DNA of 64,000 nt from positions 620,001 through 684,000 of the forward strand of contig OZ004589.1 of assembly GCA_963924555.1 (NCBI GenBank), given 5' to 3'. Numbering within the stretch: position 1 is the stretch's first letter; each line of letters starts with the position of its first letter. Made by a program: the position numbers and the translations under genes. The notes beneath the pieces are model-generated. The model saw nothing but the letters and a program-made list of their open reading frames with translations. It had not been told where the DNA came from and did no database searches. The DNA comes from Crambe crambe. Its lineage: Eukaryota > Porifera > Demospongiae > Poecilosclerida > Crambeidae. Shown one piece after another: positions 3,028 through 57,240 of this stretch.

Positions 3028-3925
3028 ACTTTTAGCTAGCTGGACTAGAATTCTTTTAGCTGCATGCCTCACATATGTAATAGCAAATAATTTTGTGGTC
3101 TGTATCGCTCTCTCTATGTAGGGATCATGACACGGATAGACTTACCGTATAGCGCTCTATTTTCGAGGCACTAATATTTCGAGGATAACTATTTCTAAAT
3201 ATTTCGCGGAATAATTTTCAAGGATCATTAAAATGTTAAATCCCGCCTACAAAATGAAAATAAATAATAATTATAGCGCGCAACATAGAATTGAATGCTT
3301 TTCCTTGAGAGTAGCTGCTGTCTCACTCCGAGAATTTTCCAGCGTAGTGGAGGTTCTACTGCTCTTCCAAATTCATAGTACATATGATAATGGCCATTAG
3401 AAGATTAAGGGGAGGAGCTGAGGGTGGAGCCTTCAGTACATATATAGATTGGGGGTGGAGCCTTCAGTACATAGATTGAGGGGAGGAGCTGGGGGTGGAA
3501 CCTTCCCTTTCATGTGGTGAATTAAAATTTGTGTCTCACAGTATCGCAACTACGGGGCTAAGTGAATGACACATGCAAGAATAACTTTTGATGGTGTTAG
3601 CTATTTGTTTGTATTGAAAGTGGAGTTATAGCAGGTAGGAAGTACATGTGAGACAATAACATCCCCATAGTATGTCAACAGTTATGATTCTCTATCATCT
3701 TATTAATGGAGTGTAATGCAGCTAGCTATTATTCAGGCTACACCGAATCCCCTTCTCTATTTATTGGGGGAGGGGAGTACTTGTTTTTACTGCATTTAGC
3801 ATTGTATATAATTTCTATTAATTTTTGCTCATTAGCATGTTGATATCACATGACATGCTCCTCAGCCGGTACTGGTGCTTGAGTTGAACCAATGAACAGA
3901 AATATCTTATTTGTTCACTCCTAGC
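3028..3925. other. Spacer between receptor copies 1 and 2
   Basis: I see no gene here. AT-rich DNA with a short G-rich duplicated stretch at about 3405-3500, where a GGAGGAGCTG..GGTGGAGCCTTC unit recurs. The same spacer recurs after copy 2 with small indels, so it belongs to the duplicated unit. Confidence 0.6.
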
Positions 3926-4720: not shown

Positions 4721-7700
4721 ATGGCTATTAAGTTCCAGATACTCTTCATCGCCTTCTGCATTCGTTATGTCTCAGGTTAGTAACTTGACTCCTCTAGCTA
4801 ATCGCTAGCTATCAGATAGCTTTCATTGTTCATTTTTCTCTCTCTCAGCAACTATTTCTAATCTTCAATTTGATACTACCGATTCTTTTCGATCAGTGCT
4901 GCTCAGCTGGGTTGATAAATTTGGATTTTGTCCTGGAAGTTATGGACTGAATTGCACACGGCTTTCTGACAACCAGGAAACTTATAATATTGAGGACTTT
5001 ACGGCAGTGTATGATAGTCGATTAGGGAGATGCATGTATGAGCCCTATGGATTTGAGGCATCCACCAATTATAACTGTTCTCTGACTCAAAACAGACCAT
5101 TCGGGACAACATCTTCAATTGAAGTCAACACATCATCAACAAGTATGAATGACTTCTTAGCTATTTAGGGGTCATAGTTGTGTCTGGGAGTTTATCAGCA
5201 TACCTATAGTCTTACTGTATTGCATGAGAATGTGAATGTGTATGGAGCATACAACCCGTTTGGTACTGAGTCTTCACCATCCAATACAGTTCACATTTTT
5301 ACTCCTACTGAAAGTGAGTTTGGTTAACTCTTGAGCTACAACCATTACACCTCAGTGAGAGAGGGTAGTGAAGAGCGATTTAAAAGATACTATTCACAAT
5401 CAGTAATTAATCTTGATTTCATTTCACACTAAGTCATACTTCCACTAATTTTGCTGATCTTTCATTATCATATATATAGTGCCATCAGAACCTCGGGATC
5501 TGGGTGTCTTCAACGTGACGTCAAACAGTGTCATTATTGCTTGGTCCCCGCCTGCAGTCACCAATGGTTTAAGTAGATACATCATTTACATCAATAATCG
5601 ACAACAAATGAACTCCATCAGTAGCAATAACACACGCTATCAAGTGTCAGGATTGATACCTGGACGTTCTTATTCCTTCCATGTAGTTGGATCTAACCAA
5701 GGGAATGTAAATTCTCCACCATCCAATACAGTCAATATCTATGTGATCACAGGTAATGTTAATAGAGCAATTAGATAGTTGATTACAGGTGATATTATAG
5801 AGCACTTCACTATAGCTATGCATATAAGCATGAATTTACACAGAGCACAGATTACTATACAGTGTGGAGCTCAGGGCATGCACATCAATCATACTGTAGA
5901 TTGCTAATGTCAATGTATGTGTAATCTACTATCATCATAATCATAACTAATGCTATCACAAGCATGGATTACTGATGTTGCAAGCATGGATTATTGATGT
6001 CACAAGCATGGATTACTGATGTTGCAAGCATGGATTACTGATGTTGCAAGCATGGATTATTGATGTCACAAGCATGGATTACTGATGTTGCAAGCATGGA
6101 TTATTGATGTCACAAGCATGGATTACTGATGTTGCAAGCATGGATTACTGATGTTGCAAGCATGGATTATTGATGTCACAAGCATGGATTGCAAGCATGG
6201 TTTATGATGCTATCACAAGCATGGATTACTAATGTTATCATGTTACAAACATGGATTACTGATAGATTACAAGCATGGTTTTAGCATGAATTACTAAGCA
6301 TGGTTTACTGATGTCACAAGCATGGACTACTGATGTCGCCAGCATAGATTACTAATGCTATCATAAGCATTAATTACTAATGCATGATTTACTCTCCTAT
6401 TGCACACAGTTCCTCAGTCTGTTGCTCCTGTTTCTTATGTGAACCGTTCAACTGACACACTCATTGTTCGATGGTCCCTCTCCTCTACATCGCCATCCTA
6501 TGCACCAACAAAATATACCATCACTTATCAACCCCTGTACACCATGAACACTCAACAAGAAATTGCAGAAGTCTTGAGTGGGACTCAATCGTTTACTAAC
6601 AGAGAAATCACTTTGACAAACCTCGGCTTTTCTTTCTCTTACCTTATATCGATTGTGGCCACTAATACTGTAGGAACTTCAATCAAGTCAACTCTCAGAG
6701 CACCTCGTGAGTTAACCCCTGTTAATTCATAAGATCCCTCCAGTAACCTCGTGAGTTAACTCCTGTCAATTCATAAGATCCCTCCAGTAACCTCGTGAGT
6801 TAACTCCTGTCAATTCATAAGATCCCTCCAGTAACCTCGTGAGTTAACTCCTGTCAATTCATAAGATCCCTCCAGTAACCTCGTGAGTTAACTCCTGTCA
6901 ATTCATAAGATCCCTCCAGTAACCTCGTGAGTTAACCCCTGTTAATTCATAAGATTCTTCCAGTAATGGGTGGGTCCCTTAGGGAAAGGGTGCATTATTG
7001 CTATAGCGACGGCAGCCATCTTGAGAGGCAAGATATATTCTGTCAATGGGTCAAGATTGCTGCTGTTACTGTGAAAAAAACACCCTCTCTATTACAACGA
7101 TTCTTGCACAGTGACTGACCGACCTGTACCTGTATCTATCTTGTTTCATATCTATTTATCATGTTGACCATTTAGCTTTCATACCAGAACCAACTTCTGC
7201 AATGAGGAACAGCAGGAAACAATTCATTCAATTCAAATTCAGTGGAGTGAGAAATTGTGATATCTGGAAGGTGAGTGAGCAAGTGTGAGCATCTAGCTAG
7301 CTAGCTCACACCTACTACAAATAGCCTTTTCGGGGATTCACTACTGAACCATGGTTAGATTTTCCTCCATTTTCGAGTAACCAGCTAGCAGTCACATGTT
7401 TCAGTATGACAACATGATCAATTTGGGAGTCCTTGATAGCTACAACAAGCAATGGAGAAACAGCTATGTGTTTCTTTTTTAGTTTAATTACAACTGATTG
7501 CACCATCAACCTAGCTAGCAAGCTGTGTTAGCAATAGAGCATATCCTTTACCTGATTCTTATGTTTATGGTGTAGCTGATCTAGTGGTAAAATTACAAAT
7601 GGGTGTGGTCATTCCACCATCCTTAAATAAAGAACTACCCCCTTTTTCGACCCACTTCACATAACCACACCATAACCTCCCCAGAATCGTGCAGCGCATA

Positions 7701-9653
7701 TTGCCTCAGAGTTGTTTGAGCGTCTTGGTATCATCTGTCCCGACTGCTCCTACACTCCATGGACCCCTTTTCTTCAACACCCCTCCACTGCATGCTCCAT
7801 TATCAATCAAGATGAAGTCATCTTCACAAGTGAAGTCACGACCTGTGGAAAAAACTTTGCTAACTGTGACCTCAACACTCACATGGAGTTCTTTCACTCT
7901 CTCCCTTCTTCTTACCTCATTGTTTCCAACACCACCCTCCTTTTGGATTCCAACTGTCCCCTTTATGCCTCCTCCCTGCAAAGCACAGACTGCTTTTCTG
8001 ATGCCTTGCACTCCACTGGGGTGCTAGCGGGCGGAGTTATTGGGAGTTTGATCGCAGAAGCACTCATTATCGTGGGAATTATTTTAATTATAATTGTTGT
8101 GAAGAAAAGGAGAAAGGAGATGAAGTACGGTACAAACAAAATGACCCCTCATCCGATGACCCGTGCTCATCCAGGGAAAGAAACTGGGAAAGAAAAAGAA
8201 ACGACATTGCAAGAGAGAAAGGAGTCTCAGTTACATGGTGCCGAGGATTCGGGATATGAGTTCCTTCCGGTGTTCAATAAATCTAAAGCAACTGGGGGGG
8301 ATAATGATGACAGCGTGGAGTACGATATTCCTAAAAATAAGCTGCGTAACTTACCAGGTGCTTCGGAAAAACCTCAGTATGAAATTCCAGATATTAATGC
8401 CACAGAGAGCATTGATCACGATGACAAGAAGACAAAGAAGAGCTCGCGCAAGGCAACTTATGTCAATATCAGAAGGAAGAATGCAAAACCTGAAGGAAGC
8501 AGTAAAGTCAAGAGTGATCGCAAGAAAGCTAAAGTTGACACCCTCGGTCAAAGTGGTGAGGGTAGACAAAGGGTTGAAGGTCAAGCTACTAAAGCTCCTC
8601 CCACTTCCAATGCTCCCACGTCTTCCAATATTCCCATGGCTCCTAAGGCTTCTACAGCCTCAATGGCTCCCCCGCCTCCCAAGCCCCCGCCGCCACCCGA
8701 GGAAGAGGAGGAGTTTAGTTTCAGTTCAATGAGGGCTGACAACTTAGGTGGTGGGGCGGCTGCGACGAAAAAGACAAGCACCATTTCTTCAACGTAAGTC
8801 ACGTACATAACATTGCATTCATGTGGTAGTGTTTCTTGCTAGGACTCCAGAACCATGCATGTCCTTAGCTTGCATAATAAGATAGCATGTTTTAAAGGAT
8901 CATTCCCGAACCTCCAATAATGGACACACTTGGGACCTAGCATCTTGTTGAGGTCGTCCTCTTTTGAAGGTAATCTTAAAATTATAGAGTGTATATACAA
9001 AGGATTGTCATTTGTTGAGAGGTTTGTCTTCTTTCTGAGTGTCTACTGTATAATGCCAAGGTCTCTGTGCATGATTTTGATTGGTAGCTATAGCTGCATC
9101 AAGCAGGCCTAGCTAAGCCACATCAGTCATAACTGATAGCTACTCGAGCATGTTCAACAGAGCTGTAATATAAAACTGGACCATCATTTTTTCAAATGGC
9201 TGACCATAATTTCAACGCCTTTAGCTATAGGATAGGCCACATATGCACAATGAATATATTGCTATAATCTCAGTAGCTGTAACTAATCTGCTTTGTTATA
9301 AGCCACGTATGACTGTCGTAATCTGCTTTGCTATGTCTTATACATTATAAGCCACGTATGACTGTACAATATAATCTGCTTTGCTATGTCTCATTTTTAA
9401 CAGTGATGGAGGAGGTAAGAAAAAGCCTCTGATCCCTCAGGTCTCCAAAGCTTCCGATGGTGGTGGCAGTGGTGCTGTAGCTGGTGGCAAGAGAGGTCCT
9501 AAGTGGGTGGGGTCAGATACGGAATATTGCGAGATGAACCCACTGGTCAAGCCCAAACCCAAGAAGGGCCAAGTGATCTCCACGGCAAATCGTGCCTATG
9601 AGTTGAGAAATAACTTGGAGAGTGCCAACAAGAACATTTACTTCATGCAGTGA
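4721..9653 (+). CDS. Fn3 receptor with SH2-docking tail, copy 2 (complete)
   Basis: Seven exons: 4721-4775, 4849-5142, 5480-5752, 6410-6706, 7188-7270, 7685-8793, 9404-9653. They sum to 2361 nt, a 786-aa protein with unbroken phase. Layout: signal peptide (starts MAIKFQILFIAFC), a Cys-bearing N-terminal domain (about 20-116), two Fn3 domains on single phase-1 exons (about 117-307), a Cys-rich juxtamembrane domain (about 308-445), TM about 447-473 with a buried Glu, and a 310-aa tail. The tail holds YEFL, YDIP, YEIP, YVNI, YCEM and YFMQ motifs and a PPPPKPPPPPEEEEE segment. It is likely a cell-surface receptor whose tail is phosphorylated by tyrosine kinases; the ligand is unknown. The start was chosen because it opens a clean signal peptide and exon 1 ends in phase 1, as exon 2 requires. 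Confidence 0.85.
5178..5316 (+). pseudogene. Half-Fn3 relic exon in intron 2 of receptor copy 2
   Basis: Reads LGVYQHTYSLTV..AYNPFG..SSPSNTVHIFTPTE, the second half of an Fn3 domain, ending at a good donor (GAAA|GTGAGT). The first half is missing, a TAG lies just upstream, and the frame entering it does not match the phase-1 end of exon 2. Exon 2 splices cleanly to the Fn3 exon at 5480, so this is read as an eroded extra Fn3 exon. Confidence 0.6.
5959..6385. repeat. 22-bp minisatellite (CAAGCATGGATTAyTGATGT) in receptor copy 2
   Basis: Intron 3 of copy 2 holds about ten tandem units of a 22-bp repeat, alternating ..GATGTTG and ..GATGTCA, then degenerate units. The same array in copy 3 is shorter, so copy number has changed since the duplication. 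Confidence 0.85.
6702..6965 (+). repeat. 44-bp minisatellite containing the Fn3 exon splice donor (6 units)
   Basis: Six tandem units start at 6702, 6746, 6790, 6834, 6878 and 6922. Each begins ACCTCGTGAGTTAAC, that is, the last four exon bases plus the donor GTGAGT. Only the first is attached to the Fn3 coding exon (ends 6706). Confidence 0.9.
8794..9403. other. Last intron of receptor copy 2
   Basis: Intron between the TM/tail exon and the last exon, near identical to the copy 1 intron (2164-2777). It holds a short duplicated motif (TATAAGCCACGTATGACTGT twice, about 9295-9370). No gene. Confidence 0.6.
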
Positions 9654-11401: not shown

Positions 11402-14400
11402 ATGGCTATTAAGTTCCAGATACTCTTCATCGCCTTCTGCATTCATTATGTCTCAGGTTAGTAACTTGACTCCTCTAACTAATCGCTAGCTATCAGATAG
11501 CTTTCATCATTATTCATTTTTCTCTCTCTCAGCAACTATTTCTAATCTTCAATTTGATACTACCGATTCTTTTCGATCAGTGCTGCTCAGCTGGATTGAT
11601 ATATCAGCATTTAGATCATGTCCTGGAAGTTATGGACTGAATTGCACACGGCTTTCTGACAACCAGGAAACTTATAATATTGAGGACTTTACGGCAGTGT
11701 ATGATAGTCGATTAAGGAGATGCGTGTATGAGCCCTGTGGATTTGAGGCATCCACCAGTTATAACTGTTCTCTGACTCGAAACAGACCATTCGGGACAAC
11801 ATCTTCAATTGAAGTCAACACATCATCAACAAGTATGAATGACTTTTTAGCTATTTAGGGGTCATAGTTGTGTCTGGGGATTTATCAGCATACTAGCTAT
11901 AGTCTTACTGTAGTGCATGAGAATGTGATTGTGTATGGAGCATACAACCCGTTTGGTACTGAGTCTTCACCATCCAATACAGTTCACATTTTTACTCCTA
12001 CTGAAGGTGAGTTTGGTTAACTCTTGAGCTACAACCATTACACCTCAGTGGGAGAGGGTAGTGATATCGAAGGGTAAGAGCGATTTAAAAGATACTATTC
12101 ACAATCAGTAATTAATCTTGATTTCATTTCACACTAAGTCATGCTTCCACTAATTTTGCTGATCTTTCATTATCATATATATAGTGCCATCAGAACCTCA
12201 GGATCTGGGTGTCTTCAACGTGACGTCAAACAGTGTCATTATTGCTTGGTCCCCGCCTGCAGTCACCAATGGTTTAAGTAGATACATCATTTACATGAAT
12301 AATCTACAAATAAACTCCATCAGTAGCAATAACACACGCTATCAAGTGTCAAGATTGATACCTGGACGTTCTTATTCCTTCCATGTAGTTGGATCTAACC
12401 AACGGAATGTAAATTCTCCACCATCCAATACAGTCAATATCTATGTGATCACAGGTAATGTTAATAGAGCAATTAGATAGTTGATTACAGGTGATATTAT
12501 AGAGTACTTCGCTATAGCTATGCATATAAGCATGAATTTATACAGAGCACAGATTACTATACAGTGTGGAGCTCAGGGCATGCACATCAATCATACTGTA
12601 GATTGCTAATGTCAATATATGTGTAATCTACTATCATCATAATCATAACTAATGCTATCACAAGCATGGATTACTGATGTTGCAAGCATGGATTACTGAT
12701 GTTGCAAGCATGGATTATTGATGTCACAAGCATGGATTGCAAGCATGGTTTATGATGCTATCATAAGCATGGATTACTAATGTTATCATGTCACAAACAT
12801 GGATTACTGATAGATTACAAGCATGGTTTTAGCATGAATTACTAAGCATGGTTTACTGATGTCACAAGCATGGACTACTGATGTCGCCAGCATAGATTAC
12901 TAATGCTATCATAAGCATTAATTACTAATGCATGATTTACTCTCCTATTGCACACAGTTCCTCAGTCTGTTGCTCCTATTTCTTATGTGAACCGTTCAAC
13001 TGACACACTCATTGTTCGATGGTCCCTCTCCTCTACATCGCCATCCTATGCACCAACAAAATATACCATCACCTATCAACCCCTGTACACCATGAACACT
13101 CGACAAGAAATTGCAGAAGTCTTGAGTGGGACTCGGTCGTTTACTAACAGAGAAATCACTTTGACAAACCTCGGCTCTTCTTTCTCTTACCTTATATCGA
13201 TCGTGGCCACTAATACTGTAGGAACTTCAATCAAGTCAACTCTCAGAGCACCTCGTGAGTTAACCCCTGTTAATTCATAAGATCCCTCCAGTAACCTCGT
13301 GAGTTAACTCCTGTCAATTCAACTCCTGTCAATTCATAAGATCCCTCCAGTAACCTCGTGAGTTAACTCCTGTCAATTCATAAGATCCCTCCAGTAACCT
13401 CGTGAGTTAACTCCTGTCAATTCATAAGATCCCTCCAGTAACCTCGTGAGTTAACCCCTGTTAATTCATAAGATTCCTCCAGTAATGGGTGGGTCCCTTA
13501 GGGAAAGGGTGCATTATTGCTATAGCGACAGCAGCCATCTTGAGAGGCAAGATATATTCTGTCAATGGGTCAAGATTGCTGCTGTTACTGTGAAAAAAAC
13601 ACCCTCTCTATTACAACGATTCTTGCACAGTGACTGACCGACCTGTATCTATCTTGTTTCATATCTATTTATCATGTTGACCATTTAGCTTTCATACCAG
13701 AACCAACTTCTGCAATGAGGAACAGCAGGAAACAATTCATTCAATTCAAATTCAGTGGAGTGAGAAATTGTGATATCTGGAAGGTGAGTGAGCAAGTGTG
13801 AGCATCTAGCTAGCTAGCTCACTCCTACTACAAATAGCCTTTTCAGGGATTCACTACTGAACCATGGTTAGATTTTCCTCCATTTTCGAGTAACCAGCTA
13901 GCAGTCACATGTTTCAGTATGACAACATGATCAATTTGGGAGTCCTTGATAGCTACAACAAGCAATGGAGAAACAGCTATGTGTTTCTTTTTTAGTTTAA
14001 TTACAACTGATTGCACCATCAACCTAGCTAGCAAGCTGTGTTAGCAATAGAGCATATCCTTTACCTGATTCTTATGTTTATGGTGTAGCTGATCTAGTGG
14101 TAAAATTACAAATGGGTGTGGTCATTCCACCATCCTTAAATAAAGAACTACCCCCTTTTTCGACCCACTTCACATAACCACACCATAACCTCCCCAGAAT
14201 CGTGCAGCGCATATTGCCTCAGAGTTGTTTGAGCGTCTTGGTATCATCTGTCCCGACTGCTCCTACACTCCATGGACCCCTTTTCTTCAACACCCCTCCA
14301 CTGCATGCTCCATTATCAATCAAGATGAAGTCATCTTCACAAGTGAAGTCACGACCTGCGGAAAAAACTTTGCTAACTGTGACCTCAACACTCACATGGA

Positions 14401-16765
14401 GTTCTTTCACTCTCTCCCTTCTTCTTACCTCATTATTTCCAACACCACCCTCCTTTTGGATTCCAACTGTCCCCTTTATGCCTCCTCCCTGCAAAGCACA
14501 GACTGCTTTTCTGATGCCTTGCACTCCACTGGGGTGCTAGCGGGCGGAGTTATTGGGAGTTTGATCGCAGAAGCACTCATTATCGTGGGAATTATTTTAA
14601 TTATAATTGTTGTGAAGAAAAGGAGAAAGGAGATGAAGTACGGTACAAAGAAAATGACCCCTCATCCAATGACCCGTGCTCATCCAGGGAAAGAAACTGG
14701 GAAAGAAAAAGAAACGACATTGCAAGAGAGAAAGGAGTCTCAGTTACATGGTGCCACGGATTCGGGATATGAGTTCCTTCCGGTGTTCAATAAATCTAAA
14801 GCAACTGGGGGGGATAGCGATGACAGCGTGGAGTACGATATTCCTAAAAATAAGCTGCGTAACTTACCAGGTGCTTCAGAGAAACCTCAGTATGAAATTC
14901 CAGATATTAATGCCACAGAGAGCATTGATCACGATGACAAGAAGACAAAGAAGAGCTCGCGCAAGGCAACTTATGTCAATGTCAGAAAGAAGAATGCAAA
15001 GCCTGAAGGAAGCAGTAAAGTCAAGAGTGATCGCAAGAAAGCTAAAGTTGACACCCTCAGTCAAAGTGGTGGGGGTAGAGTGGCAAATGTATCTAAACAA
15101 AGGGTTGAAGGTCAAGCTACTAAAGCTCCTCCCACTTCCAATGCTCCCACGTCTTCCAATGTTCCCACGGCTCCTAAGGCTCCTACAGCCTCAATGGCTC
15201 CCCCGCCTCCCAAGGCCCCGCCACCCCCCGAGGAAGAGGAGGAGTTTAGTTTCAGTTCAATGAGGAAGCAGATGACTACCAACTTAGGTGGTGGGGCGGC
15301 TGCGACAAAAAAGACAAGCACCATTTCTTTAACGTAAGTCACGTACATAACATTGCATTCATGTGGTAGTGTTTCTTACTAGGACTCCAGAACCATGCAT
15401 GTCCTTAGCTTTCATAATAATATACTTACTAGATATCATATTTTAAAGGATTATTTCCCTAACCTCCAAATAATGGACCTAGCATCTTGTTGAGGTTGTC
15501 CTCTTTTGGAGGTGATCTTAAAATTATAGAGTTGTATATACAAAGGATCGTCATTTGTTGAGAGGTTTGTCCTCTTTCTACTGTATGCCAAGGTCTCTGT
15601 TAGTAAATGAAGGCCATCTAATTTGGCCCTCACATGTGTTGGCTATTAATTATCTCCATAATTTTGTCATATCCATCCATATTAGCTAGCTGACTATCCC
15701 TCCATTGCAATGTCTTATCAAAAAGAATGTAATTATAACCGATGGAGTATTTATTAACAATTCAAGACTCAATCACTCGATTGAATTGACCTTATTGGAG
15801 CCGAGGCCAGCCCAATCGATTCAGCAAGTCACTGGCTGCTAAGTAGCCTTCATTCAGCTCATTACGGAGAATTTTTTGAATCAGTACAATCCGTTACTCC
15901 TTTTTGGCACTTAACTGCTATAAAGACTCTCTTCTGTATATCATTGAATGATTCCTTTGTGACGAACATGGCTGCGACAATATAGACATGTGCTGCTCTC
16001 AATGTGCTGCTACACATTAATTGAAAGTAATCTAATCCAAGATTCTGTGTGATTGGTGGGCATTTGAAGTATGATACGTTTCATTTGATTACAATGTTCT
16101 GAGCAAACCCTGATGTACCTCACTGCCAAATGATTCATGCTGATGTACCTCACTGCCAAATGATTCATGCTGATGTACCTCACTGCCAAATGCTGATGTA
16201 CCTCACTGCCAAATGATTCATGTTTATGCGATATGCATGGTTTGATTGGTAGCTAGCTGCATCAAGCAGGCCTAGCTAAGCCACATCAGTCATATTATAT
16301 CACCTGTAAAAACTATTGTGTAAAAATAATTGTTATTTGAGTTCCAATTTGCAACTCAGATAACCTAAAAATGGGTTTGTACACATTTATTTTACTGATA
16401 GCTATATACCCCGAGCATGTTGAGTGGAGCTGTAATATACCATCAAATGGCTGACCAAGTCTTTATAGGATAGGCCACATAGCTATGCACAATGAATATT
16501 GCGTCAGTAGCTATAATTAATCTGCTTTATTATTTTGCTATGTCTCATTTATAACAGTGATGAAGGAGGTAAGAAAAAGCCTCTGATCCCTCAGGTCTCC
16601 AAAGCTTCCAATGGTGGTGGCAGTGGTGCTGTAGCTGGTGGCAAGAGAGGTCCTAAGCTGGTGGGGTCAAATACGGAATATTGCGAGATGAACCCACTGG
16701 TCAAGCCCAAACCCAAGAAGGGCCAAGTGATCTCCACCAACAAGAATGTTTACTTCATGCAGTGA
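11402..16765 (+). CDS. Fn3 receptor with SH2-docking tail, copy 3 (complete)
   Basis: Seven exons: 11402-11456, 11533-11832, 12185-12454, 12958-13254, 13701-13783, 14198-15333, 16558-16765. They sum to 2349 nt, 782 aa, phase unbroken. Same domain order as copy 2. Differences are whole-codon changes: exon 2 is 6 nt longer (DISAFRSC against DKFGFC) and the first Fn3 exon is 3 nt shorter. The tail exon gains codons around VANVSK and RKQMTTN. The last exon loses 14 codons that include the YEL motif of copies 1 and 2. YEFL, YDIP, YEIP, YVNV, YCEM and YFMQ remain. The frame-preserving indels suggest the copies are expressed and diversifying. Confidence 0.85.
11866..12006 (+). pseudogene. Half-Fn3 relic exon in intron 2 of receptor copy 3
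   Basis: Homologue of the relic in copy 2, with one in-frame 3-nt insertion (Ser). It keeps a donor (GAAG|GTGAGT) but has no upstream half. Confidence 0.55.
12659..12935. repeat. 22-bp minisatellite, short allele, in receptor copy 3
   Basis: Same CAAGCATGGATTACTGATG repeat as at 5959-6385, with about three clean units instead of about ten, followed by the same degenerate tail. Confidence 0.8.
13250..13484 (+). repeat. 44-bp splice-donor minisatellite (5 units) in receptor copy 3
   Basis: Units start at 13250, 13294, 13353, 13397 and 13441. The second carries an internal 15-bp duplication (AACTCCTGTCAATTC). The first unit is joined to the Fn3 exon ending at 13254. Confidence 0.85.
15334..16557. 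other. Enlarged last intron of receptor copy 3
   Basis: 1.2 kb here against about 0.6 kb in copies 1 and 2. The extra DNA lies mainly between about 15600 and 16400. It includes a 30-bp tandem repeat (TGATGTACCTCACTGCCAAA.., about four units, 16111-16221). No coding sequence seen. Confidence 0.6.
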
Positions 16766-19851: not shown

Positions 19852-41255
<21,404 letters not shown>

Positions 41256-43179: not shown

Positions 43180-46100
43180 ATGGGCGATAAAGATGAGATA
43201 TTGATGAATTTTCAGGTGAGTCTACTAAGTAGCTACAAATCTCGAGTTAAGTGTAGAGTGTGCATTATTTGGATATATTTAACATGTACTATTAAATACT
43301 AAGGCTATAACTGGAATAGATGACATAGCAATTTGTCTTGATATACTGGAACAGAAGAACTGGGATTTGGTAGTAAGTATTAATGTAGGCATCAAAATAA
43401 GAGTGAGAAAATTATCCTTCATTCTGTTGCTAGGCAGCGTTGTCTGGTGTAATGCCCCCAGAGAATTACTCACAGAGCGTTGAAAGAACTTCGAATGGTC
43501 CATCAACTAATAGCAGGTTAGATTTAATTGAAAGTGGACTGCAGTCATAACCCATACTGCAACTTTGTGTGCATATTCTATTATTAGTTGGCTACTTTTA
43601 GCTCACTTCTATACAGTTTTTCCTTTAATAGAGTGAAGAATGTGGCAATTGTTATTGTGTTGATGTAGTGGGATATGTATGCCAAGGATTTAGCTAACAT
43701 TAACTCTAATTAGAGAACACCACAAGATGAATCGGTATTTTCTGTACACAGTAATGGCCCTGTGAGATCAGTTGGGTATGTGGATTTGACTGTTCCAGAG
43801 ACTCATATTAATGTGGAGGCAGAAGAATCTACTGTTCAGCAGTAAGTGTCGACCTTAGGGGGCTATCTCAATGTTAGTTATAATGGGTATGTGGGGAAAA
43901 AATCATTGCAAAGCTTCCTTATACTGGAAGCATTCAAGACTGTTAAGAGGCATTATTTAGAGTCATTATTGATAGTGAAAGTATTATGCACTTATCATAC
44001 TGATTTTGTCATTATGATGTAATAACCAATGAAAATTCAGTTTGTTTGATCACAGGCATAAAGATGCATCTCTGTGTGTGTCATATTCTTGTAGGGCTAC
44101 TGGGTCCTCTACTTCATGTACCTTGGGAGTGTATTTTGGAGAAAAGCTACTCAGACTGGAATTGCCTCTGAGCACTACGCTGGCCGAGGTCTGTATACTG
44201 AGTACTATAGACAACCATTGGAAGTATGGCTCACTCCTTCCCCCATTTTTTTTATTTTTTATTTTTTAGGTGAAGCAGCAGCTGGAAAGAGAGACGCGTG
44301 TTCCTCCTTCTGAGCAGGTTCTCTCCGGTTGGCCCCAAGCAATGCAAGTCCCTAAGGAAGTTGAGGTACCATGATGTGATAGAGTACTTATACATGCAGT
44401 TACCAAGTTGGAAAATAATAGTGTATCTATCCAAGACCCTTGTCTCTCTCTCTCTCTCTCTCTCTCCCCCCCCCCCCCCCCCCCCCCCCCCAGGAGCAAA
44501 TGACACTTGAACAACTGAACATCAGTGGTGATATTTACCACATTCGTATGGACCATCAACCCCCCTTCCACTATCCCTCCCTCCCCCACCTGCAAACCCT
44601 CACTGACATCTCCCTCAGTAACAACAGCATGTATGTCAATAAATCCTCTGTTCCAACCCTCACCTCATCACTATTCAACCATCGCCAGTCATCCTTTCCA
44701 GTGCAGGAAACAGCTCAGTCTGATGTCCGGAGTCTAAGTGTTGATCCAGGCTCACTTGAGGATCAGTTGTCGTCACAGGAGAGTACTGATGGAGTGAGTG
44801 GAGGGGAGGGAGTGGTGGCTGGGGAGGGTGGGAAGAAGAAAGGGGAGCATAGCAGAGGAACTGGCGACAGTTTGATAGTGATTGGAAGTACTACTGCTAA
44901 GGTGCCAGCACTGCTCAAACCTAATGTAAGTGAACTAAGAGGATCTGCTACTAAAGATATATTTGGATGTGTGAAATACCAGTATCAAGATATCATGAAT
45001 ATTATTATTGCAGGAAGTGATTGAAATCCGTGACAGCTCCCATTCCTCTGGAGCAAGTGACTCTTCACCTATTCCAGACTGCTTTGTATGTTGATCTCCT
45101 ATCATATTTTTATCCTGTAATGATTCACTTTTTGTATTTTGCTGTGTAGGGTGAAGACGATGAATTGTTTGATGATGAAGATGTCAAGAGCACTTCGGCC
45201 ATTAAGGCTCTGAAGGATCCATTAGTGCCCGAGGACTGTACTGAACCATATGAGGTGTTGCAGTGCTTCACTCACTCCTTTGAGCTGCGCTACGGTGCCA
45301 TGCATCCTCTCTTCCTCCTGGGTTCTCTCGCTGAGGCTATGGCTGAGGCTACCAGTGGCCCTGCTTCAAGCAGAGTGGTTAAGTATTGTGTATAGATAGG
45401 TCATTTGTTTTACATACTTGATCATGAAATATTTGACATGATTTACAGTAATTCATATCTTCCTAATCTGTATCGGTACATGTAAATAAAGTTCAGCTAC
45501 AGTTATTATATAGAGTGCTTTTTGTCTTGCCAGTGAAATTATCCACACCTGTTTGTAAAAGCTTATTCACTCAATTTACTTTATTATTGTAGAGAAAGCC
45601 GATGTTCGTATACCTGCATCATGACCGGAGTGTCCTGTCCAATGTATTTTGTAGCCAGTTGCTCTGCAGTGAATCTGTGGTGAGCTACCTCTCCTTGAAC
45701 TTTATCACTTGGGCATGGGACCTCACACTGCACATTCACCGGCTCAAGTAAGTAGCAGCGGACTTGCAGCCCTGTATGATTCGAGCATACTCTTTGCAGG
45801 CTTCTCAAGATGGTGGAGGACTGTTTTGGATCAGCTGCAAAGACCAGTGTAGATGAGATCAAAGCAGATCACCTTCCAGTCATTCTGATAGTATACAAAG
45901 AAAAAGGCTCTGTTAGCATCAGGAATATTATACAAGGTGTTCTAGTTTAAAATAGGAATGTATAGATTTTAGTGCGTATGTCAGGATGGCCGAGTGGTCT
46001 AAGGCGCTGCGTTCAGGTCGCAGTCTACTCTTGTAGGCGTGGGTTCGAATCCCACTTCTGACACTTTTTTTTTCTTCTTTTTTTTTCCCCCACCTTGAAG

Positions 46101-47459: not shown

Positions 47460-50400
47460 ATGGCTTCTTTGATACGAAGTGAGAGATGGAAATGGAAATC
47501 TATGAACTACAAGATGGTCTCTGGTTCTTCCTTCAAGTGTCTTTATGAAAGTAAAGCCTCTTCCAGATTCCTGAGGCCTCGAGATTCCCTGCGACCAGCA
47601 TATGTTCTGCTCCTGGTCATGTTAAGTGTTCCAGTGATGTACAGAGTATTCTGCCTTGTCACAGCTGTGGCAGCATTAACCATGGGACCAGTGGGCTCAC
47701 CAATAACCAGTGAATCATCAGGTAAGTTAGAATACTGTAGCAAGAATTGTGTTGAAAATATGTCTGATTTTTTTACAGCTGGAGTTGAAAGTTTGGAACC
47801 AGCTGTGAACTTTTCTGCCTTTGAATGGTCATTGAGCTGGATGAACCATTTCATTCTAAAGCTTACTATTTCCAGTGCTGTAATTTTGACATACAGTTTG
47901 TTTGTGGTCACCTTCATTCAACCAAAAACAGGTACTGCATGGCTTACTAGCTATCGACTAGAAATAATTCATCTTTCTCTTATTAATATTGTTTAAGGTT
48001 GTAATTCAAAGCCCTCTCATGATGGTTCACCATATGCTGGAACTAAATTCAGAATTGACTGGAAACTAGTAATGGCGGTTCCAGTGTTTCATGTGTATGC
48101 TGCTATGATAATGATGTTGCTTATTTTAGCTGGAGATGTGGAAACTAACCCTGGCCCTACTGGTAAATCCATTAGCAATGGTATTTATGGAGGGTACATA
48201 CTGTATTTGCATGTTGAAGCATACTTTGCTTTAATAAAGTTGGTTTACTAGCCGCTTTAAGTAACAGCTCTATTTTAATAAAAGTGCTTCTTTGCACCCT
48301 TACTGAGTGGTACTTTAAATAATGCCCACCCAAATGAAATTATTCTCACTGTTAGGCGTACTTCTTCCTAGCCGTTTACACCTAGTAATGTGAGAGTGAT
48401 TAGGTCTTATGATAATTGAATTTACTGCAGAGTTAACTCTGAAGACAGTTAGAACCCTTCTTCATCCAATACGTCATAAGTGGAAACATATTGCTATTGA
48501 ACTTGAAATAAGCAAAGGTACAATTGGAAGTCTAAAAGTGCAGTATAGTGACCCTAAAGATCTTATAAGTGAAATGGTATCCGAGTGGTTAAAAGGTATT
48601 TCCCCTCAACCTTCTTGGGAAATATTAGCCAGTGCACTTGAAAGCGACTTTGTGAATGAAAAGGCAATAGCAAAAGATATCAGAGAACGTTTTTGCGATC
48701 AAATTGAAAGCTCTGTAGACCATGAAGATCAGATACCGCAACTACCACATTCAAGTGCTGTGAAAGCTAAACCAACATCTAAATCACCAACTGAGGAATA
48801 TGCAGGCTATATGAGATCAATTTATAGCAGAAGTGAATTCCCAGATGATAACAAGTGGCCACCCACTCCATCAAAGCATTTTATTGACTTGGCTTTTATC
48901 GATAAGAAGTCTGAGGATGAACTAGAAAGGGCACCTTTTACTCATGGAATTGATCAGTATGTGAACAGTAGAGAGTCTGTTGATATGAAGGACATAGGTA
49001 GACCCCAGTCTGATTCTGACTATCCTCATATAATTTTAGTGGAAGGGGCACCAGGTGTTGGTAAAACTACATTTGCTTGGCAGCTGTGTAGAAAGTGGGC
49101 TAGCAAAGAATTGTTAAAAGAGTACAAACTCTTGATCTTCCTAAGACTGCGAGACAGAAAGGTAAGAGAATCTAAAACATTGAATGAACTGTTTTATCAC
49201 TATGACGGCTCTCTCTCTGAGAAGGTACGAAAAGAAGTAGAATCTGAGCAAGGAAAAGGTGTAATGTTCATTTTGGAAGGGTTTGATGAATTGCCTCGAG
49301 ATTTTAAAATGGACGGTTCCATCTTTAGTTTTCTTCTCAATGGTCATATTTTACCATCAGCATCGATTCTTGTTACATCTAGACCTAGGGCTCTAACTGA
49401 GTTAAGATGTAAGTTATCTTCTATAAGCCAGCATATAGAGATTCTAGGTTTCATCCAAGACCAAATATTTGAGTTTGTAGATTCTCTCAGCACTAAAAGT
49501 CATGTGCAGGATTTTATAAAGTTCATTATAAGGAATCCACTGATGCTAGCTATCATGTATATTCCACTCAATGCTGCTATTGTATTCCAAGTATATAGAG
49601 ATATAGTCTTTCGTGAAGGTACAGCTGGCAACTTTCCAACAACTTTCACAGATCTTTATGAAAGATTTACTCTTACTTTGTTATTACGATACATAGGAAA
49701 GTGCAAAAAGTTATCTTTTAATAGTTTGCCTCCTAATGTTAAAATTTCATTTGCTAAACTCTGTCAATTGGCTTATGAGGGATTGCAAAAGAAACAGGTT
49801 ACTTTTCATGATCTTCCTGATGACTTCGAAACACTTGGTTTCATGCAGTCATATTCTGATATTCACATCAGTAGGGGAATTTGTGTCAGTTCTAGCTTTC
49901 TGCACTTCACACTACAAGAGTATTTGGCTGCTAGATACATAGCAGAAAACAAAGATCCTGCTGATCACTTCAAAAAAATCACACTTGGCTATAATGATAT
50001 GTACATAAGGTTCTTAGCTGGGATCACTCAGTTACAGAACAGTTCACACTCAAAGTACATCTTTAATTCTACAAACCCTAGTATTATTATGTATCAGTAT
50101 ATCTGCTTAGATGCTGAAGAACAGTGTACTTTGAAGCAAGAAGTTTTTTGTGACAATAGCATTGAGCGTGGTTGTTTGAACTGGTGGTACGAATCGAAGA
50201 ATAAGAGCATTATAACTGGTATTGATAGAGAGAAGTCAGTAGCAGTGCACATGCCCCAGGTGGCATTGGATTATTATGCACTAGGGCATTGCATAGCTGT
50301 CAGTCACTGCAAATGGAAGCTGATTATTGACAAGGAGTGTATGATCAAAGATGAATGTGCAATGCTAATGATCGAGGGGTTAAAAACTGGTGATGGAGAA

Positions 50401-51399
50401 TCAGTTATTGAATCCATATTCTTCAATACGAAATCAGGAATGCAGAGAGCTTTTGGAGACTTGTTGAAATTCTTAGCTAGTCGAAATAAGCTTACTGGAT
50501 TACACGAATTGTGGATCTTTCAGAATTCACTGCTCTCGAGCTATAGCAATAGCATTTTTAAAGAGTGTCCATTGCAGAGTATCACTATAATGTGCAAATA
50601 TGGGAGAGTTGCTGAAATTTCAACTACTCTTGCCTCCAGAACATTGGAATCTTTGTATTTCCACCCTTTAAGCAAGCGTGAAGTTTTAAGTTGTAAATAT
50701 GTACAGAGTTTAATGATGATAGGTCCATGTGGCTTTGATGGAGACATAATTAGTGCCATTTGTGAACTTCTATCACAAGAGAACACCATACATACTCTGA
50801 CTTTGCAGCTGTTTGGTACTCACATTGAAAGATTTGCAAGCAGCCTATGTCGATTCCATCGCTACAACTTTAAGCCTGTTTTTGAGATTTTGAAGTATAA
50901 TAAGACACTCAAAACACTAAACCTTTTCTACGTTAATTTGACCACATCCTTTAATTTGCTCAATTCACTTCTACTGCGTAATCAGACTCTGCAAGAAATA
51001 TGTCTTCTGAAATGTGGTGTCAGTGATGACACCTTGTCAAATTTATCTCGTATATTTACAACTGGTAGAATTTCGTTGCAAAAATTTGCTGTTCATGATA
51101 GTTTTTCAGACTGTAAGAGTATATTAAAAATGCTGCACATAAAGTCATCGTTAAAGGAGCTTACTCTGAGAAGTGATACGTTTCTACAGAATGTTGAGCA
51201 GCTAATGTCAGCTTTAGTACCAGGTATCAAGTTATCAACATTGGAAATCTCATACATTCAACAGAAACAGTACCATCAAATGCAGCAACACTGCCGATCT
51301 CTTGTATTACCACTATCGATTAATGCATATGTGGATGGAAATATCATACACCATCATTCATTGACAAGCTATGGTATAAGTGTGGAATATAATTTCTAG
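47460..51399 (+). CDS. NLR1: triple-TM leader, 2A-like peptide, DEATH-NACHT-LRR receptor
   Basis: Four exons, all joined in phase 1: 47460-47721, 47779-47931, 47998-48162, 48431-51399, giving 1182 codons of precursor. Leader exons 1-3 each hold one hydrophobic segment (VLLLVMLSVPVMYRVFCLV; ISSAVILTYSLFVVTFI; VFHVYAAMIMMLLILA). Exon 3 ends in GDVETNPGP, a canonical 2A motif; skipping would end the leader at Gly191 and start the NLR at Pro192. The NLR then has a DEATH domain (about 194-284), NACHT with Walker A GAPGVGKTT (about 399-407) and Walker B MFILEGFDE (about 472-480), and C-terminal leucine-rich segments (LNLFYVNLTT, LLLRNQTLQEICLLKC). Likely role: cytosolic innate immune sensor, from the family. 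An in-frame ATG at 48409 could also start the NLR without the leader. Confidence 0.88.
48120..48158 (+). promoter_or_regulatory. 2A-like ribosome-skipping signal in NLR1
   Basis: Encodes LLILAGDVETNPGP. The D-V/I-E-x-N-P-G-P core is the full 2A consensus, preceded by a hydrophobic helix as in working 2A sequences. It lies at the end of exon 3, three codons before the DEATH domain exon. Confidence 0.85.
48233..48238 (+). promoter_or_regulatory. Intronic poly(A) signal in NLR1 intron 3
   Basis: AATAAA inside the intron between the 2A exon and the NLR exon. With intron retention the frame stays open for 29 codons past the exon to TAG at 48249-48251, so a leader-2A-only mRNA is possible. Confidence 0.45.
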
Positions 51400-51500
51400 T
51401 CTTGTTTTCTTTCATTTGTCATTATTCATTTTTTGTATTCATTCATTCATGGCTTTATGCGCATGCACACATGTCCTAACTTTGTTACACCATAGATACA
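51400..51500. other. NLR1 3' region
   Basis: T-rich 3' flank; no gene. Confidence 0.4.
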
Positions 51501-51981
51501 GAGGTTTTCAGGTTGGTTGACACAAAATTTGCCAACAATGCATAATTAAATTCGTGCTCGCTAAATTTAAGACCATTGCATTTGTATGACAGTATATTTT
51601 ACTCGCATGAATTTATTTTGCACATGCGCAAATTCTACTGGTCAACCAACCTGAAAACCTCTGTATACACCGATTTGCAGGTCGGTTGTCACAAAAAAGG
51701 GTCGTCAAATTTCACGCATGCGTGTTCATCTCAATTCAAAACCAATAGAATTCAACACGCATGCGTGTAAATTGACGACCTTTTTTTGTGACAACCGACC
51801 TGCAAATCGGTGTACTGAAGTTTTCAGGTTGGTTGACCAGTAGAATTTGCGCATGTGCAAGATAAATTCAAGCGAGCAAAAATACTGTCATATAAATACA
51901 ATGCTCTTAAATTTTGCGAGCACGAATTTAATTCTGCACTGTTGGCAAATTTTGTGTCAACCAACCTGAAAACCTCAGTAA
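51501..51981. mobile_element. Nested foldback cluster (three MITEs)
   Basis: Element 1 (51501-51657) has ends GAGGTTTTCAGGTTGGTTGA and its complement. Element 2 (about 51664-51817) has arms ACCGATTTGCAGGTCGGTTG. Element 3 (about 51823-51981) is element 1 in reverse orientation. Together they make a palindrome of about 480 bp centred near 51740. Confidence 0.85.
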
Positions 51982-53181: not shown

Positions 53182-54011
53182 ATGGCTTCGTTAAGTGTGA
53201 GTGAGCGGTGGAAATGGAAATCGATGAACTACAAGATGGTCTCTGGTTCTTCCTTTAAGTCTCTTTATGAAGGTAAAGCCTCTTCCAGATTCCTGAGGCC
53301 TCGAGATTCTTTGCGACCAGCATTTGTTCTGCTCCTGGTCATGTTAAGTGTTCCAGTGATGTACAGAGTATTCTGCCTTGTCACAGCTGTGGCAGCATTA
53401 ACCATGGGACCATTGGGCTTACAAGTAACCAGTGAACCATCAGGTAAGTTGGAATACTAGTCTATAGAGATTCAAATTCATATGTTGGATTTTGTGTACA
53501 TGTTCAGCTGGAGTGGAACCAGCTGAGAACTTTTCTGCCTTTGAATGGCCATTTAATGAAGAGAGCTGGATGAGCTGTCTCATTGTTAAGCTGACTATTT
53601 CCAGTGCTGTAACTTTCACATACAGTTGGTTTGTAATCACATTTATTCAACAAAAAACAGGTAAGCTTCAAAAAAACAAAAACAAAAAAAACAAACAAGA
53701 GTGTACTTACCACAGGAATGTTCCCTGTAAACAGTATAGTGTATTTACAAAGAGCATTCCTTAGATATGCAATACACACTTTCATTTTTAGAGTGTAGCT
53801 GATGAAAATGGAGATTAATTTAATTGTTCCCTTTCATTTGTTCAAGGTTGTGATTCCAAGCACTCTCATGATCGTTCACCATATGCTGGAATTAAACTGA
53901 GAAATGACTGGAAACTGGTAATGACTGTTCCAGTGTTCCATGTGTACACTGCTGTGGTAATGATGTTACTTATTTTAGCCGGGGATGTGGAAATCAACCC
54001 TGGACCTACTG
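53182..54011 (+). CDS. NLR2 leader: triple-TM segment ending in a 2A-like motif (intact)
   Basis: Exons 53182-53443, 53508-53660 and 53847-54011 have exactly the lengths of the NLR1 leader exons (262, 153, 165 nt) and stay open. Three hydrophobic segments, then GDVEINPGP: the variable x position is Ile instead of Thr, which the consensus allows. Intron 3 is only 52 bp, so the intronic poly(A) signal of NLR1 is absent. The body that follows is broken. Confidence 0.8.
53984..54007 (+). promoter_or_regulatory. 2A-like signal in NLR2
   Basis: Encodes DVEINPGP at the end of leader exon 3. All fixed positions of the 2A consensus are kept. Confidence 0.8.
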
Positions 54012-54063: not shown

Positions 54064-57000
54064 AGTTAACTCTGAAGAAAGTTAGAAGCCTTCTTCATCC
54101 AATACGTCATAAGTGGAAAGATATTGCTATTGAACTTGAAATAAACAAAGGTACAATTGAAAGTCTAAAAGTACAGTACGGTGACCCTAAAGATCTTGTA
54201 AGTGAAATGGTATCTGAGTGGTTAAAAGATATTTCCCCTCAACCTCCTTGGGAAATATTAGCTAGTGCGCTTGAAAGTGACTTTGTGAATGAAAAAGTAA
54301 TAGCAAAGGATATCAGAGAGAATTTGTGATCAAATTAATAGCTCTGTAGACCAAGAAAAGCAAATACGACCACCACATTCAAGCGCTATGAAACCTGAAC
54401 CACCATCTAAATCACCGATTGAGGAATATGCAGACTATATGAAATCACTCTATCGTAGAAGTAAGTTTCCAGATGATAACAAGTGGCCACTTACTCCGTC
54501 AAAGCATTTCATTGACTTAGTTTGTGTCGATAAACAGTCTGAGGCTAAGCAAGAAAAGGCACCGTTCACTGATGGAATAGACCAGTCTGCTAAAAAATGG
54601 AAAACTATAGACATGAAAGACATAGGTAGACCCCAGTCTGATTCTGACTATCCTCATATGATTTTAGTGGAAGGGGTACCAGGTGTTGGTAAGACTACAT
54701 TTGCTTGGCAGCTGTGTAGAAAGTGGGCTAATAAGAAATTATTGAAAATGTATGACCTTGTGATCCTTCTAAGGTTGCGAGACAGAAAGGTAAGAGAAGC
54801 TAAAACGTTGAATGACTTCTTTTATCACTATGACAACTCTCTCTCTGAAAGAGTATGTAAAGAAGTAGAATCTGTTCATGGAAAGGGTACAATGTTCATT
54901 TTTGAAGGGTTTGATGAATTTACACCTGAACTAAGGAAACTAGAACAAACCAATTCTATCTTTACTCTTCTACTCAGTGGTAAGGTCTTGCCATCATCTA
55001 CTATCATGGTTACATCTAGACCATGGGCCTTGACTGACTTACAGTGCAAGCTTTCCTCCTCCATAACCCAGCATGTGGAAATTCTGGGATTCACTAACAA
55101 TAGAATACTTGAATATATAAACTCATTTGATAGAGAGAATGATGGGTTTCTTAAATTTGTAGAAGCTAATCCACTGCTTCGTGCTGTAATGTACATACCA
55201 CTCAATGCTGCCATAGTATACCAGGTCTACCAAGACATGGCCTCCCGTGAAGGTGTCAGAGGCATCTTTCCAACTACTTTAACAGAACTGTATTCAGACT
55301 ATACCCTTACATTGCTATTACGATACTTAAAAAGCACAGAAAAGTACAAAGACATAGCAGGAATCATTTCCCATCATACCTTGCCTCCTGAAGTTAAAAA
55401 GGCATTTGATAAACTTTGTGAATTAGCATATGTAGGGTTAATAGAGAAACAGCAGTTAACTTTCACTGGTCTTCCTGATGACTTTGAAACTCTTGGATTC
55501 ATGCAATCATGTTCAGACATTCATGTCAGCAGGGGAGTGTCTCTCAGTTACAACTTTCTGCACTTCACACTGCAGGAGTATTTGGCTGCTGTATACATAG
55601 CAGAACACAAAGATCCTGCTGATCACTTCAAAAAAGTCACATATAGTATGTACATAAGATTCTTAGCTGGGATTACTCAATTGAAGAATCCACTACATTC
55701 CAAGTATATTTTAGATAAGTCAGATCTTATGATTTCTGTGCCATATTATACCTGTCTGAAAAATGAGAATGCTGAAACAGATAAAGTAATTTTTGTGATA
55801 TTAACATAGAGCGTGGTTGTTTAAACTGGTGGTACGAGTCAAGAAATGAGAGCATCATAACTAATATTCCTAGTACAAGATGTGCGACGGTGTTTATGCC
55901 TCCTACTCCACTGGGTTACTATGTACTAGGTCACTGCATAGCCATCAGTCACTGCAAATGGGAGCTAATATTTGACAAAGATTGCATTATTGATGATAAT
56001 TGCTCCATGTTAATGATGGAAGGATTAAAAACAGCTCAAGAAACGTCAGTCATTGACTCCATATTACTGAATACATGTCTAGGAACAAAGAAAGCATTTG
56101 GAGACTTGATGAAATCTTTAGCTAGTCAGAATAAGCTAACTGGATTGCACAATTTGGCTATTTATCAACAGTCATTGCTTTCAAGTGATAGTTATAAAGT
56201 TTGTCCACTACAAAAGATTCGTCTACCATGTAAGTTTGGAAGAGTTGGAAATTTTATAGAATCTACCTTCAAATTGAAATCTTTAGAGTTTCACCCTTTA
56301 AGCCATCGGGAACTGTTATGCTATCAAAATGTGCCTGATCTGGTGATAAGAGGACCATGTGACTTTGATGGAGATCTAATGGATTCTATTTATAAGCTTT
56401 TATTACAAACTAAAGCAATACATTTCCTGCAATTGCAAGTTTTTGGTATTCATTAGACCAGTGTTAATGACATTCATGTTTCTCAGGATTTTTCCTCACA
56501 GCCATGCGGGCGGGCGGTAGTTATTATCCATTATACCATTATTATCAATGTCAAAAATGTCCATTTTCTAGCCACAAAATCATCATAAGTACAAGCACTT
56601 GAAGTCTGCAGCTGCTCAGCTGAATAGCAGCTTCTGGAGCGGTGCCAATTTTCCAATGCGGGCGGTTGACCAGAAACATGAATATCATTAACACTGGCCT
56701 TATGTGAAGAAACCTGGGCCGGTATTTGAGGCTTTAAAATGTAATAAAACTGTAGAAAATCTATCACTTGTGTCTGTCACTGTGAATACTTCACTTAAAC
56801 AACTGAACTCGCTTCTACTTCGTAATAAGACTCTACAAGATTTAAGTCTCTCGTATTGCAATATTAGCAATGAAATGCTATCAAATATTTGTCGCATCTT
56901 CACTACTGGCAAAGTTTCCTTGAAGACTTTTCTGTTTAGGGATAAAAGTGACATAGACTGTAATTCTCTACTACCACTGCTGGACAAGAAATCACCATTA

Positions 57001-57240
57001 GAGGGTCTTGGATTACAGATCGATGGAAAACTACAAATGTTGACATCTTAATAGCAGCTCTGGTACCAGGCATATGATTGAGATTATTATTTATTGGATA
57101 TATCACTCGGCAACAGTTTGATCAAATGAGGCAACACTACAATTACTCCCATTTAACAGAGTTGAAAATTATAGCCTCCGTACAAGAAGATGATGACATT
57201 AAAACTCCTAACGAATATGATTTCTATGTATGTTTTAAAG
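54064..57240 (+). pseudogene. NLR2 body: DEATH-NACHT-LRR, frameshifted and MITE-disrupted
   Basis: DEATH domain frame 54064-54329 ends at a TGA caused by a 2-nt deletion relative to NLR1 at about 54320. NACHT frame 54388-55809 keeps Walker A (GVPGVGKTT) and Walker B-like MFIFEGFDEF, then shifts near 55785. The next frame, about 55810-56455, is cut by a MITE in the LRR region. LRR remnants follow (56703-57051, 57078-57240) with further breaks. Synonymy with NLR1 is still high, so decay is recent. A short DEATH-only product from leader plus exon 4 remains possible. Confidence 0.85.
56456..56699. mobile_element. 244-bp MITE in NLR2, related to the 3.8 kb transposon
   Basis: 32-bp imperfect TIRs (right end, inverted: GGCCAGTGTTAATGATATTC..TTTCTGGTC), flanked by TTA duplications (56453-56455, 56700-56702). 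It shares GGCC..TTTCTGGTC ends, TIR length, GCGGGCGG subterminal motifs and a TWA-type 3-bp duplication with the element at 35796-39580. Confidence 0.85.

Follow-up and report, generated by a model that had tools for sequence, protein, structure and literature searches.

The DNA studied here (the window) is a stretch of 64,000 nucleotides from the sponge Crambe crambe, positions 620001-684000 of its contig (C12). It carries a gene for a Death-NACHT-LRR receptor of the NLR family, preceded by a leader with three hydrophobic segments and a 2A (StopGo) ribosome-skipping motif. We consider it probable that the ribosome splits the single open frame of this gene into a membrane leader and a cytosolic NLR, and that the gene is one instance of a recurrent module in which a leader and a 2A stand before a Death domain. 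At the level of sequence, the gene structure, the complete 2A, the NLR architecture and a constrained leader all fit two products from one mRNA.

In the sea urchin Strongylocentrotus purpuratus, NLRs are known that start with a 26-residue N-terminal 2A peptide, which is signal sequence and skipping element in one (Roulston et al. 2016, PMC4981915). 2A-like sequences were counted in 85 of 241 sea-urchin NLR proteins, and a later count found the N-terminal form in 14 of 87 database entries (PMC4981915). One sea-urchin NLR 2A was shown to skip, and mutation of its Pro led to more reporter in the medium (PMC4981915). Translation of a 2A can end in skipping, read-through or termination, in proportions that depend on the sequence (PMC4981915). 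In the StopGo structure, L6, L7, L9, D12, E14 and N16 are tunnel contacts or functional positions, and the use of 2A in cells has been described as rare (PMC12846837).

Results

Gene structure and receptor architecture

Four exons with GT/AG borders, all in phase 1, join into an open frame of 1182 aa that ends with a TAG at 51399 (Table 1). Exon 1 ends in phase 1 and exons 2 and 3 (153 and 165 nt) are symmetrical phase 1-1. The leader comprises 191 residues with three hydrophobic segments, one per leader exon, whose 19-residue Kyte-Doolittle maxima are 2.37, 2.06 and 2.27 for exons 1, 2 and 3, respectively. At the junction the joined frame reads LLILAGDVETNPG followed by PTELTLK..., and the predicted break between NPG and P falls at Gly191/Pro192. 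The core D(V/I)ExNPGP is present as DVETNPGP at 48135 and as DVEINPGP at 53984, the latter in a tandem copy of the gene. In the window gene the Asp of the core is preceded by LLILAG, which matches the functional upstream context (L7 and L9 in F2A numbering); L6, L7, L9, D12, E14, N16, G18 and P19, the positions taken from PMC12846837, are all present. An earlier note on this DNA had described three phase-1 leader exons with one hydrophobic segment each and a GDVETNPGP end, and both the joined frame and the hydropathy maxima agree with it. Its further claim that all fixed 2A positions are present was confirmed for the core as well as for the upstream Leu positions. The direct splicing of the leader exons onto the exon at 48431, as predicted in the same note, is consistent with the GT/AG borders and the uninterrupted frame.

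Exon 4 encodes the receptor body, for which an NLR architecture had been proposed. The NACHT domain is recognised by Pfam (E = 1e-22, 81.2 bits versus a cut-off of 26.7). The Death domain of the window sequence alone stays below the Pfam cut-off (16.1 versus 22.6 bits); a profile of 18 Death-like exons 3' of 2A sites matches THOC1, RIPK1, FADD, PIDD and Fas in PDB, with a best E of 1.8e-7. Pfam reported no LRR in the receptor body. An AlphaFold model of exon 4, built from a 38-sequence alignment (mean predicted local distance difference test score, pLDDT, 72.7; predicted template modelling score, pTM, 0.63), has an N-terminal helical bundle, the NACHT domain and a C-terminal row of strand-helix repeats. 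Compared with PDB, this model matches NLRP3 best (E 6.8e-22), followed by NOD2, NLRC4 and other NLRP proteins, over about 900-1050 columns. The proposed architecture thus finds its NACHT domain in Pfam, its Death domain in the 18-exon profile and its LRRs in the structural model, and the window receptor can be assigned to the Death-NACHT-LRR type by predicted domain content and order.

A tandem copy and constraint on the leader

A second copy of the gene starts 5.7 kb downstream and has the same three leader exons. Alignment of the two copies shows similarity that starts at the ATG and breaks at every predicted donor and acceptor; exon 1 is conserved from the ATG through the donor. Nucleotide identity is 93, 82 and 87% in leader exons 1, 2 and 3, compared with 70% in intron 1, 31% in intron 2 (which measures 66 nt in copy 1 and 186 nt in copy 2) and 50% over the 100 nt 5' of the ATG. 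Over 190 codons the leaders differ by 26.5 synonymous and 35.5 non-synonymous changes, a ratio of non-synonymous to synonymous rates (dN/dS) of 0.37 (binomial p = 0.0012); for the Death exon, dN/dS over its first 87 codons is 0.34. The leader is therefore constrained as a protein, to about the degree seen in the Death domain. Such constraint would be unnecessary for a plain targeting peptide, and for this reason we infer that the leader has a function of its own beyond targeting. The core of copy 2, GDVEINPGP, is still valid.

An in-frame ATG lies a few codons 5' of the exon-4 acceptor in both window copies, and an ATG also stands at the predicted starts of two relatives from another assembly, P0001 and P0002. 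The NLR could thus start within intron 3 of one transcript, the leader exons belonging to another isoform. We give this very little weight: the ATGs of the two copies are misaligned, intron 3 is not conserved, and the starts of P0001 and P0002 are choices of the gene caller, while both splice sites of intron 3, its donor behind the 2A and its acceptor ahead of the Death exon, are kept in phase 1.

Predicted topology of the leader

According to the positive-inside rule, flanking regions rich in Lys and Arg stay on the cytosolic side, and the leader segments were oriented on this basis. The ratio of Lys plus Arg to Asp plus Glu in copy 1 is 10/3 in the N-tail, 0/4 in loop 1 (which holds one sequon), 4/2 in loop 2 and 0/2 in the tail; the corresponding values for copy 2 are 9/3, 0/6, 5/3 and 0/2. 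These charges predict for both copies an orientation with the N-terminus in, loop 1 out, loop 2 in and the C-terminus out. Behind a leader with its C-terminus out, an NLR left uncleaved would end up in the lumen or outside the cell, and skipping would therefore be needed to obtain a cytosolic sensor. The earlier note had pictured the uncleaved product as an NLR tethered to the endoplasmic reticulum (ER) or another membrane; the charges of both copies argue for an exported product on the lumenal or outer side instead.

Export could also be the very purpose of the arrangement. In dual targeting as in the sea urchin, skipping would be partial by design and the exported, uncleaved NLR would be a functional second form. 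In HeLa cells about 15% of the reporter appeared in the medium with wild-type SpNLR2A6 versus 44% with a skipping-dead mutant (PMC4981915), and the predicted topology would export the fusion here too. However, L7 and L9 are kept nearly everywhere they were read, and in nine of nine sites chosen without bias (see below), which suggests pressure for efficient skipping. Apart from 7 sequons, no sign of extracellular life was seen in the receptor body, and the sea-urchin leader has 26 residues versus 191 here. We regard dual targeting as unlikely and favour a split that delivers the NLR to the cytosol.

2A sites across the genome

Searches covered 143 Mb of genome in 119 contigs. The pattern coding for D(V/I/M)ExNPGP occurs at 208 sites and the pattern coding for GDVETNPGP at 87, and both patterns reversed give 0. 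The variable place of the 208 sites is an NTN codon (V, L, I, M) in 85 and a WSN codon in 123 (T or S among the 100 listed). Coordinates of 203 sites place them on 15 contigs, many of them in arrays. Such a number in one genome contrasts with the description of cellular 2A use as rare (PMC12846837).

From the 208 sites, 34 distinct ones were read. L7 and G11 are present in 34/34 and L6 and L9 in 32/34 each, in a sample that includes 5 sites found with a pattern demanding G11, 11 more of that pattern's type and 9 found because they resemble the window leader. Among the 9 sites free of such selection, L7, L9 and G11 occur in 9/9 and L6 in 7/9; moreover, all 69 of the DVET-type sites listed without a Gly requirement also carry the preceding Gly codon. 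The core is coded in 22 ways at the 34 sites (17 for DVE, 5 for DIE), and it is therefore the peptide that selection keeps. A phase-1 GT follows within 28 nt of the core at all 34 sites, in 30 by consensus scan and in four (L021, L033, L034 and L041) by eye.

One locus (C11, about 7.086 Mb; L043 at about 7741-8100 on the plus strand, also L015) holds a leader copy that reads GDVETNLGP in place of NPGP and otherwise keeps LLILAG. It is a candidate for a naturally dead 2A and would be useful as a negative control.

These data bear on two further explanations. If the motif were inert, the gene would make a single membrane-anchored or lumenal NLR. Translocon engagement of the region upstream of a 2A can inhibit the reaction (PMC2978324), and the NLGP copy exists at its one locus; yet an inert motif would hardly explain why tunnel-contacting residues are kept through 22 codings and behind leaders without detectable relation, and we consider this explanation quite improbable. 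Least credible of all is that a retrotransposon or virus introduced the 2A, which is now decaying. 2A-like sequences with the same core are known from non-LTR retrotransposons (PMC4981915), but 10 large open reading frames (ORFs) adjoining 2A sites gave no reverse-transcriptase match at E <= 1e-4, and the phase-1 GT after the core at the 34 sites read resembles a host exon.

Genes downstream of the 2A sites

A Death-like exon was found 55-836 nt downstream of 27 of the 34 sites with a local Death profile applied within 1 kb. This profile was seeded from 7 of the 34 sites, and 20 of the 27 unseeded sites were positive. At 20 sites with long loci (7 of them seeds), 17 Death-like hits fell in the first 1 kb downstream and 5 beyond it; 3 hits were upstream, and the opposite strand had 0. 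From the 27 positive sites we infer that the 2A leader is a module that recurs in front of Death-domain genes, of which some are NLRs: NACHT lies further downstream at 9 of 21 sites (copy 2 plus the 20 with long loci), and at L030 it is present despite the lack of a Death hit. Other downstream parts are ankyrin repeats (L035) and Roc-COR (L043).

Two loci deserve separate mention. At L046 (positions 2-3199, minus strand), downstream of a 2A site, one long open frame has an Ig domain before NACHT, which is odd in a presumed cytosolic receptor. At L037 (2964-4766, plus strand), downstream of a 2A site lacking a Death-like exon, a frame of 601 aa has no Pfam match at E <= 1e-4 and shows a hydrophobic stretch by eye.

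Leaders at other 2A sites

When the genome was searched with the window leader, the tandem copy alone matched strongly over the three exons. Beyond it, one locus on C11 matched leader residues 55-192 weakly (30%, E 3e-4, three internal stops), and the remaining matches (E 0.03 to 0.7) were confined to residue 138 onward. A search for other genes with the same three leader exons, which the earlier note had proposed, thus yielded the tandem copy and, apart from that, one weak locus. Fifteen hand-picked leaders were compared after removal of the 2A tail: L032, L020, L043 and L040 form one group, L047 and L002 a small second one, and the rest are without clear relation. The pairs L034-L039 and L041-L002, at z 4.2, are counted as such. 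Against the other representatives the window leader reached z <= 2.0 throughout; the leader of L038 looks by eye like a member of the large group, but its highest score, z 2.4, does not place it there.

A hydrophobic segment adjoins the 2A core in 13 of the 15 representatives (exceptions L032 and L034), and two such segments in open frame are present in 3 of the 15. Among these leaders it is thus common for a membrane-type segment, predicted from hydropathy, to stand immediately ahead of the 2A. With the upstream exons of the non-window leaders untraced, three segments in three exons were seen in the window pair only. The earlier note had called a leader with several membrane segments the unusual part; the gene as such is no isolated case, considering the 208 pattern sites, the Death-like exons at 27 of 34 and the two-segment leaders elsewhere.

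Discussion

Proposed mechanism

Exons, motif, constraint, domain architecture and recurrence are read from the DNA, and splicing, membrane insertion, topology, skipping and a function of the leader are predictions built on them. The basic N-tail and segment 1 would dock the ribosome on the ER, and the three-segment leader would be inserted with its N-terminus in and its C-terminus out. The third segment and the 2A core would then fill the exit tunnel, the Gly191-Pro192 bond would be skipped and a membrane protein of 191 residues released. The same ribosome would continue with a cytosolic NLR that begins with Pro-Thr, its Death domain starting no more than a few residues further on. If the ribosome read through instead, the NLR would be joined to a segment that faces outward and would be exported; skipping would therefore set the amount of active sensor. 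The architecture fits two proteins from one mRNA, as had been suggested, but the fixed ratio that was claimed along with it is not implied, since the outcomes of 2A translation vary (PMC4981915, PMC2978324).

Several observations speak against this picture or narrow it. In this assembly the receptor frame of copy 2 is interrupted, the earliest breaks lying near 54.32 kb and 55.79 kb. Another assembly has two uninterrupted relatives: P0001 shares 97% identity with copy 1; P0002 shares 61% with copy 1 and 63-84% with the fragments of copy 2, the longest of which gives 84%. Neither Pfam nor PDB nor the protein collection contains a match to the leader, and for leader exons 1-2 none of 78 candidates from the protein collection reached E <= 0.01. 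The topology was derived from charges with limits of the hydrophobic segments set by hand, and segment 1 (31 residues, two Pro) could be a hairpin. Many of the 34 sites are paralogues and not independent events. At seven of the 34 no Death-like exon was found (L030, L031, L033, L037, L017, L024 and L008; the last three were searched over 1.5 kb only), and the Pfam Death model matches 12 of the 27 Death-like exons at E <= 0.01. When the 203 sites with coordinates were compared with the listed Pfam Death hits (150 of 965 candidates), a hit lay no further than 1.5 kb downstream at only 4 sites, and upstream at 0; the genome-wide Death listing and the 2A coordinates are too incomplete for a test of association. 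Among the listed NACHT hits, 6 of 103 have a listed 2A within 12 kb upstream, both lists being partial. 2A leaders are therefore not general to NLRs in this genome.

Relation to known systems

With the sea-urchin NLR 2A the present one shares the GDVETNPGP core and a Leu-rich hydrophobic stretch before it (as read from a primer in PMC4981915), and also its place N-terminal to Death-NACHT-LRR; the partition between cytosol and exocytic pathway described there (PMC4981915) is predicted here. In contrast to the sea-urchin type, the 2A does not lie within a signal sequence of about 26 aa: its end, at residue 191-192, is encoded by coding exon 3. The leader before it has 191 residues, three exons, three hydrophobic segments and its own constraint at the protein level. 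Furthermore, the Death-like exons behind a 2A in this genome include those of genes that carry ankyrin or Roc-COR parts. Viral StopGo/2A sequences agree with the window gene in the core, D(V/I)ExNPGP, as well as in L6, L7 and L9 further upstream (PMC12846837), whereas here the motif belongs to a host gene and a membrane-type segment adjoins the core. The NLRD class of the sponge Dysidea avara resembles the window receptor in the order of Death, NACHT and LRR and in being part of an expanded NLR family; unlike here, the excerpted text of that paper (PMC12909245) has 0 mentions of NPGP, signal peptide or ribosom. The literature searched contained no relevant link of 2A to sponges, NACHT or death domain and no leader-2A-Death module in non-NLR genes, although earlier mention of either is possible. 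Among known systems the sea-urchin NLR 2A comes closest to the leader-2A-Death arrangement, for which the sequence evidence is good.

If the sites skip, co-translational splitting would be this animal's standard route to cytosolic death-signalling receptors, with a membrane protein made alongside them in nearly the same quantity. The role of 2A in animal NLRs also becomes testable, since the core and its position are common to leaders that differ in sequence. One could go further and suppose that many Death-domain immune receptors of this animal are StopGo polyproteins with a membrane partner dedicated to them, in which contact between leader and translocon tunes the skip; disturbed ER insertion, for example in infection, would then change the cytosolic fraction of the sensor and arm the receptor. 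We hold this extension to be rather doubtful. If true, translation itself would report on the secretory pathway.

Other features of the window

Table 1. Positions of the receptor gene, its parts and its tandem copy in the window.
Feature	Position	Strand	Description
Exon 1	47460..47721	+	Start codon, positively charged N-tail (aa 1-44), hydrophobic segment 1 (~aa 45-75), donor gtaagt, phase 1
Exon 2	47779..47931	+	Acidic loop, N-glycosylation sequon NFS (aa 98-100), hydrophobic segment 2 (~aa 111-134)
Exon 3	47998..48162	+	Basic loop, hydrophobic segment 3 (~aa 160-182), 2A core, phase-1 donor 4 nt past NPGP
2A (StopGo) stretch LLILAGDVETNPGP	48117..48158	+	Predicted skipped bond Gly191 (48153-48155) / Pro192 (48156-48158)
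Exon 4	48431..51399	+	Entire Death-NACHT-LRR receptor body, stop codon
Death domain	48431..48690	+	Starts within few residues of predicted N-terminal Pro
NACHT ATPase domain	49030..49482	+	Pfam
C-terminal strand-helix (LRR-type) repeats	50230..51300	+	Approximate limits; AlphaFold model, Foldseek
Tandem copy 2, leader	53182..54011	+	Exons 53182-53443, 53508-53660, 53847-54011; ends GDVEINPGP (DVEINPGP 53984-54007)
Tandem copy 2, receptor body	54064..57137	+	Death stretch open at start, NACHT 54658-55128, frame broken into several

Between the two receptor genes, at 51496-51980, lie nested inverted repeats with arms of 103, 72 and 71 nt that are 90-92% complementary; they are perhaps small transposons nested in each other. 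Elsewhere in the window, three near-identical long ORFs stand in tandem at a spacing of about 6.5 kb (1055-2164, 7676-8794 and 14189-15334). A tandem pair of similar ORFs is located at 30336-31496 and 33271-34311, each with a stretch that resembles a signal peptide by eye. A tRNA-Leu (CAG) was identified by ARAGORN at 45980-46064.

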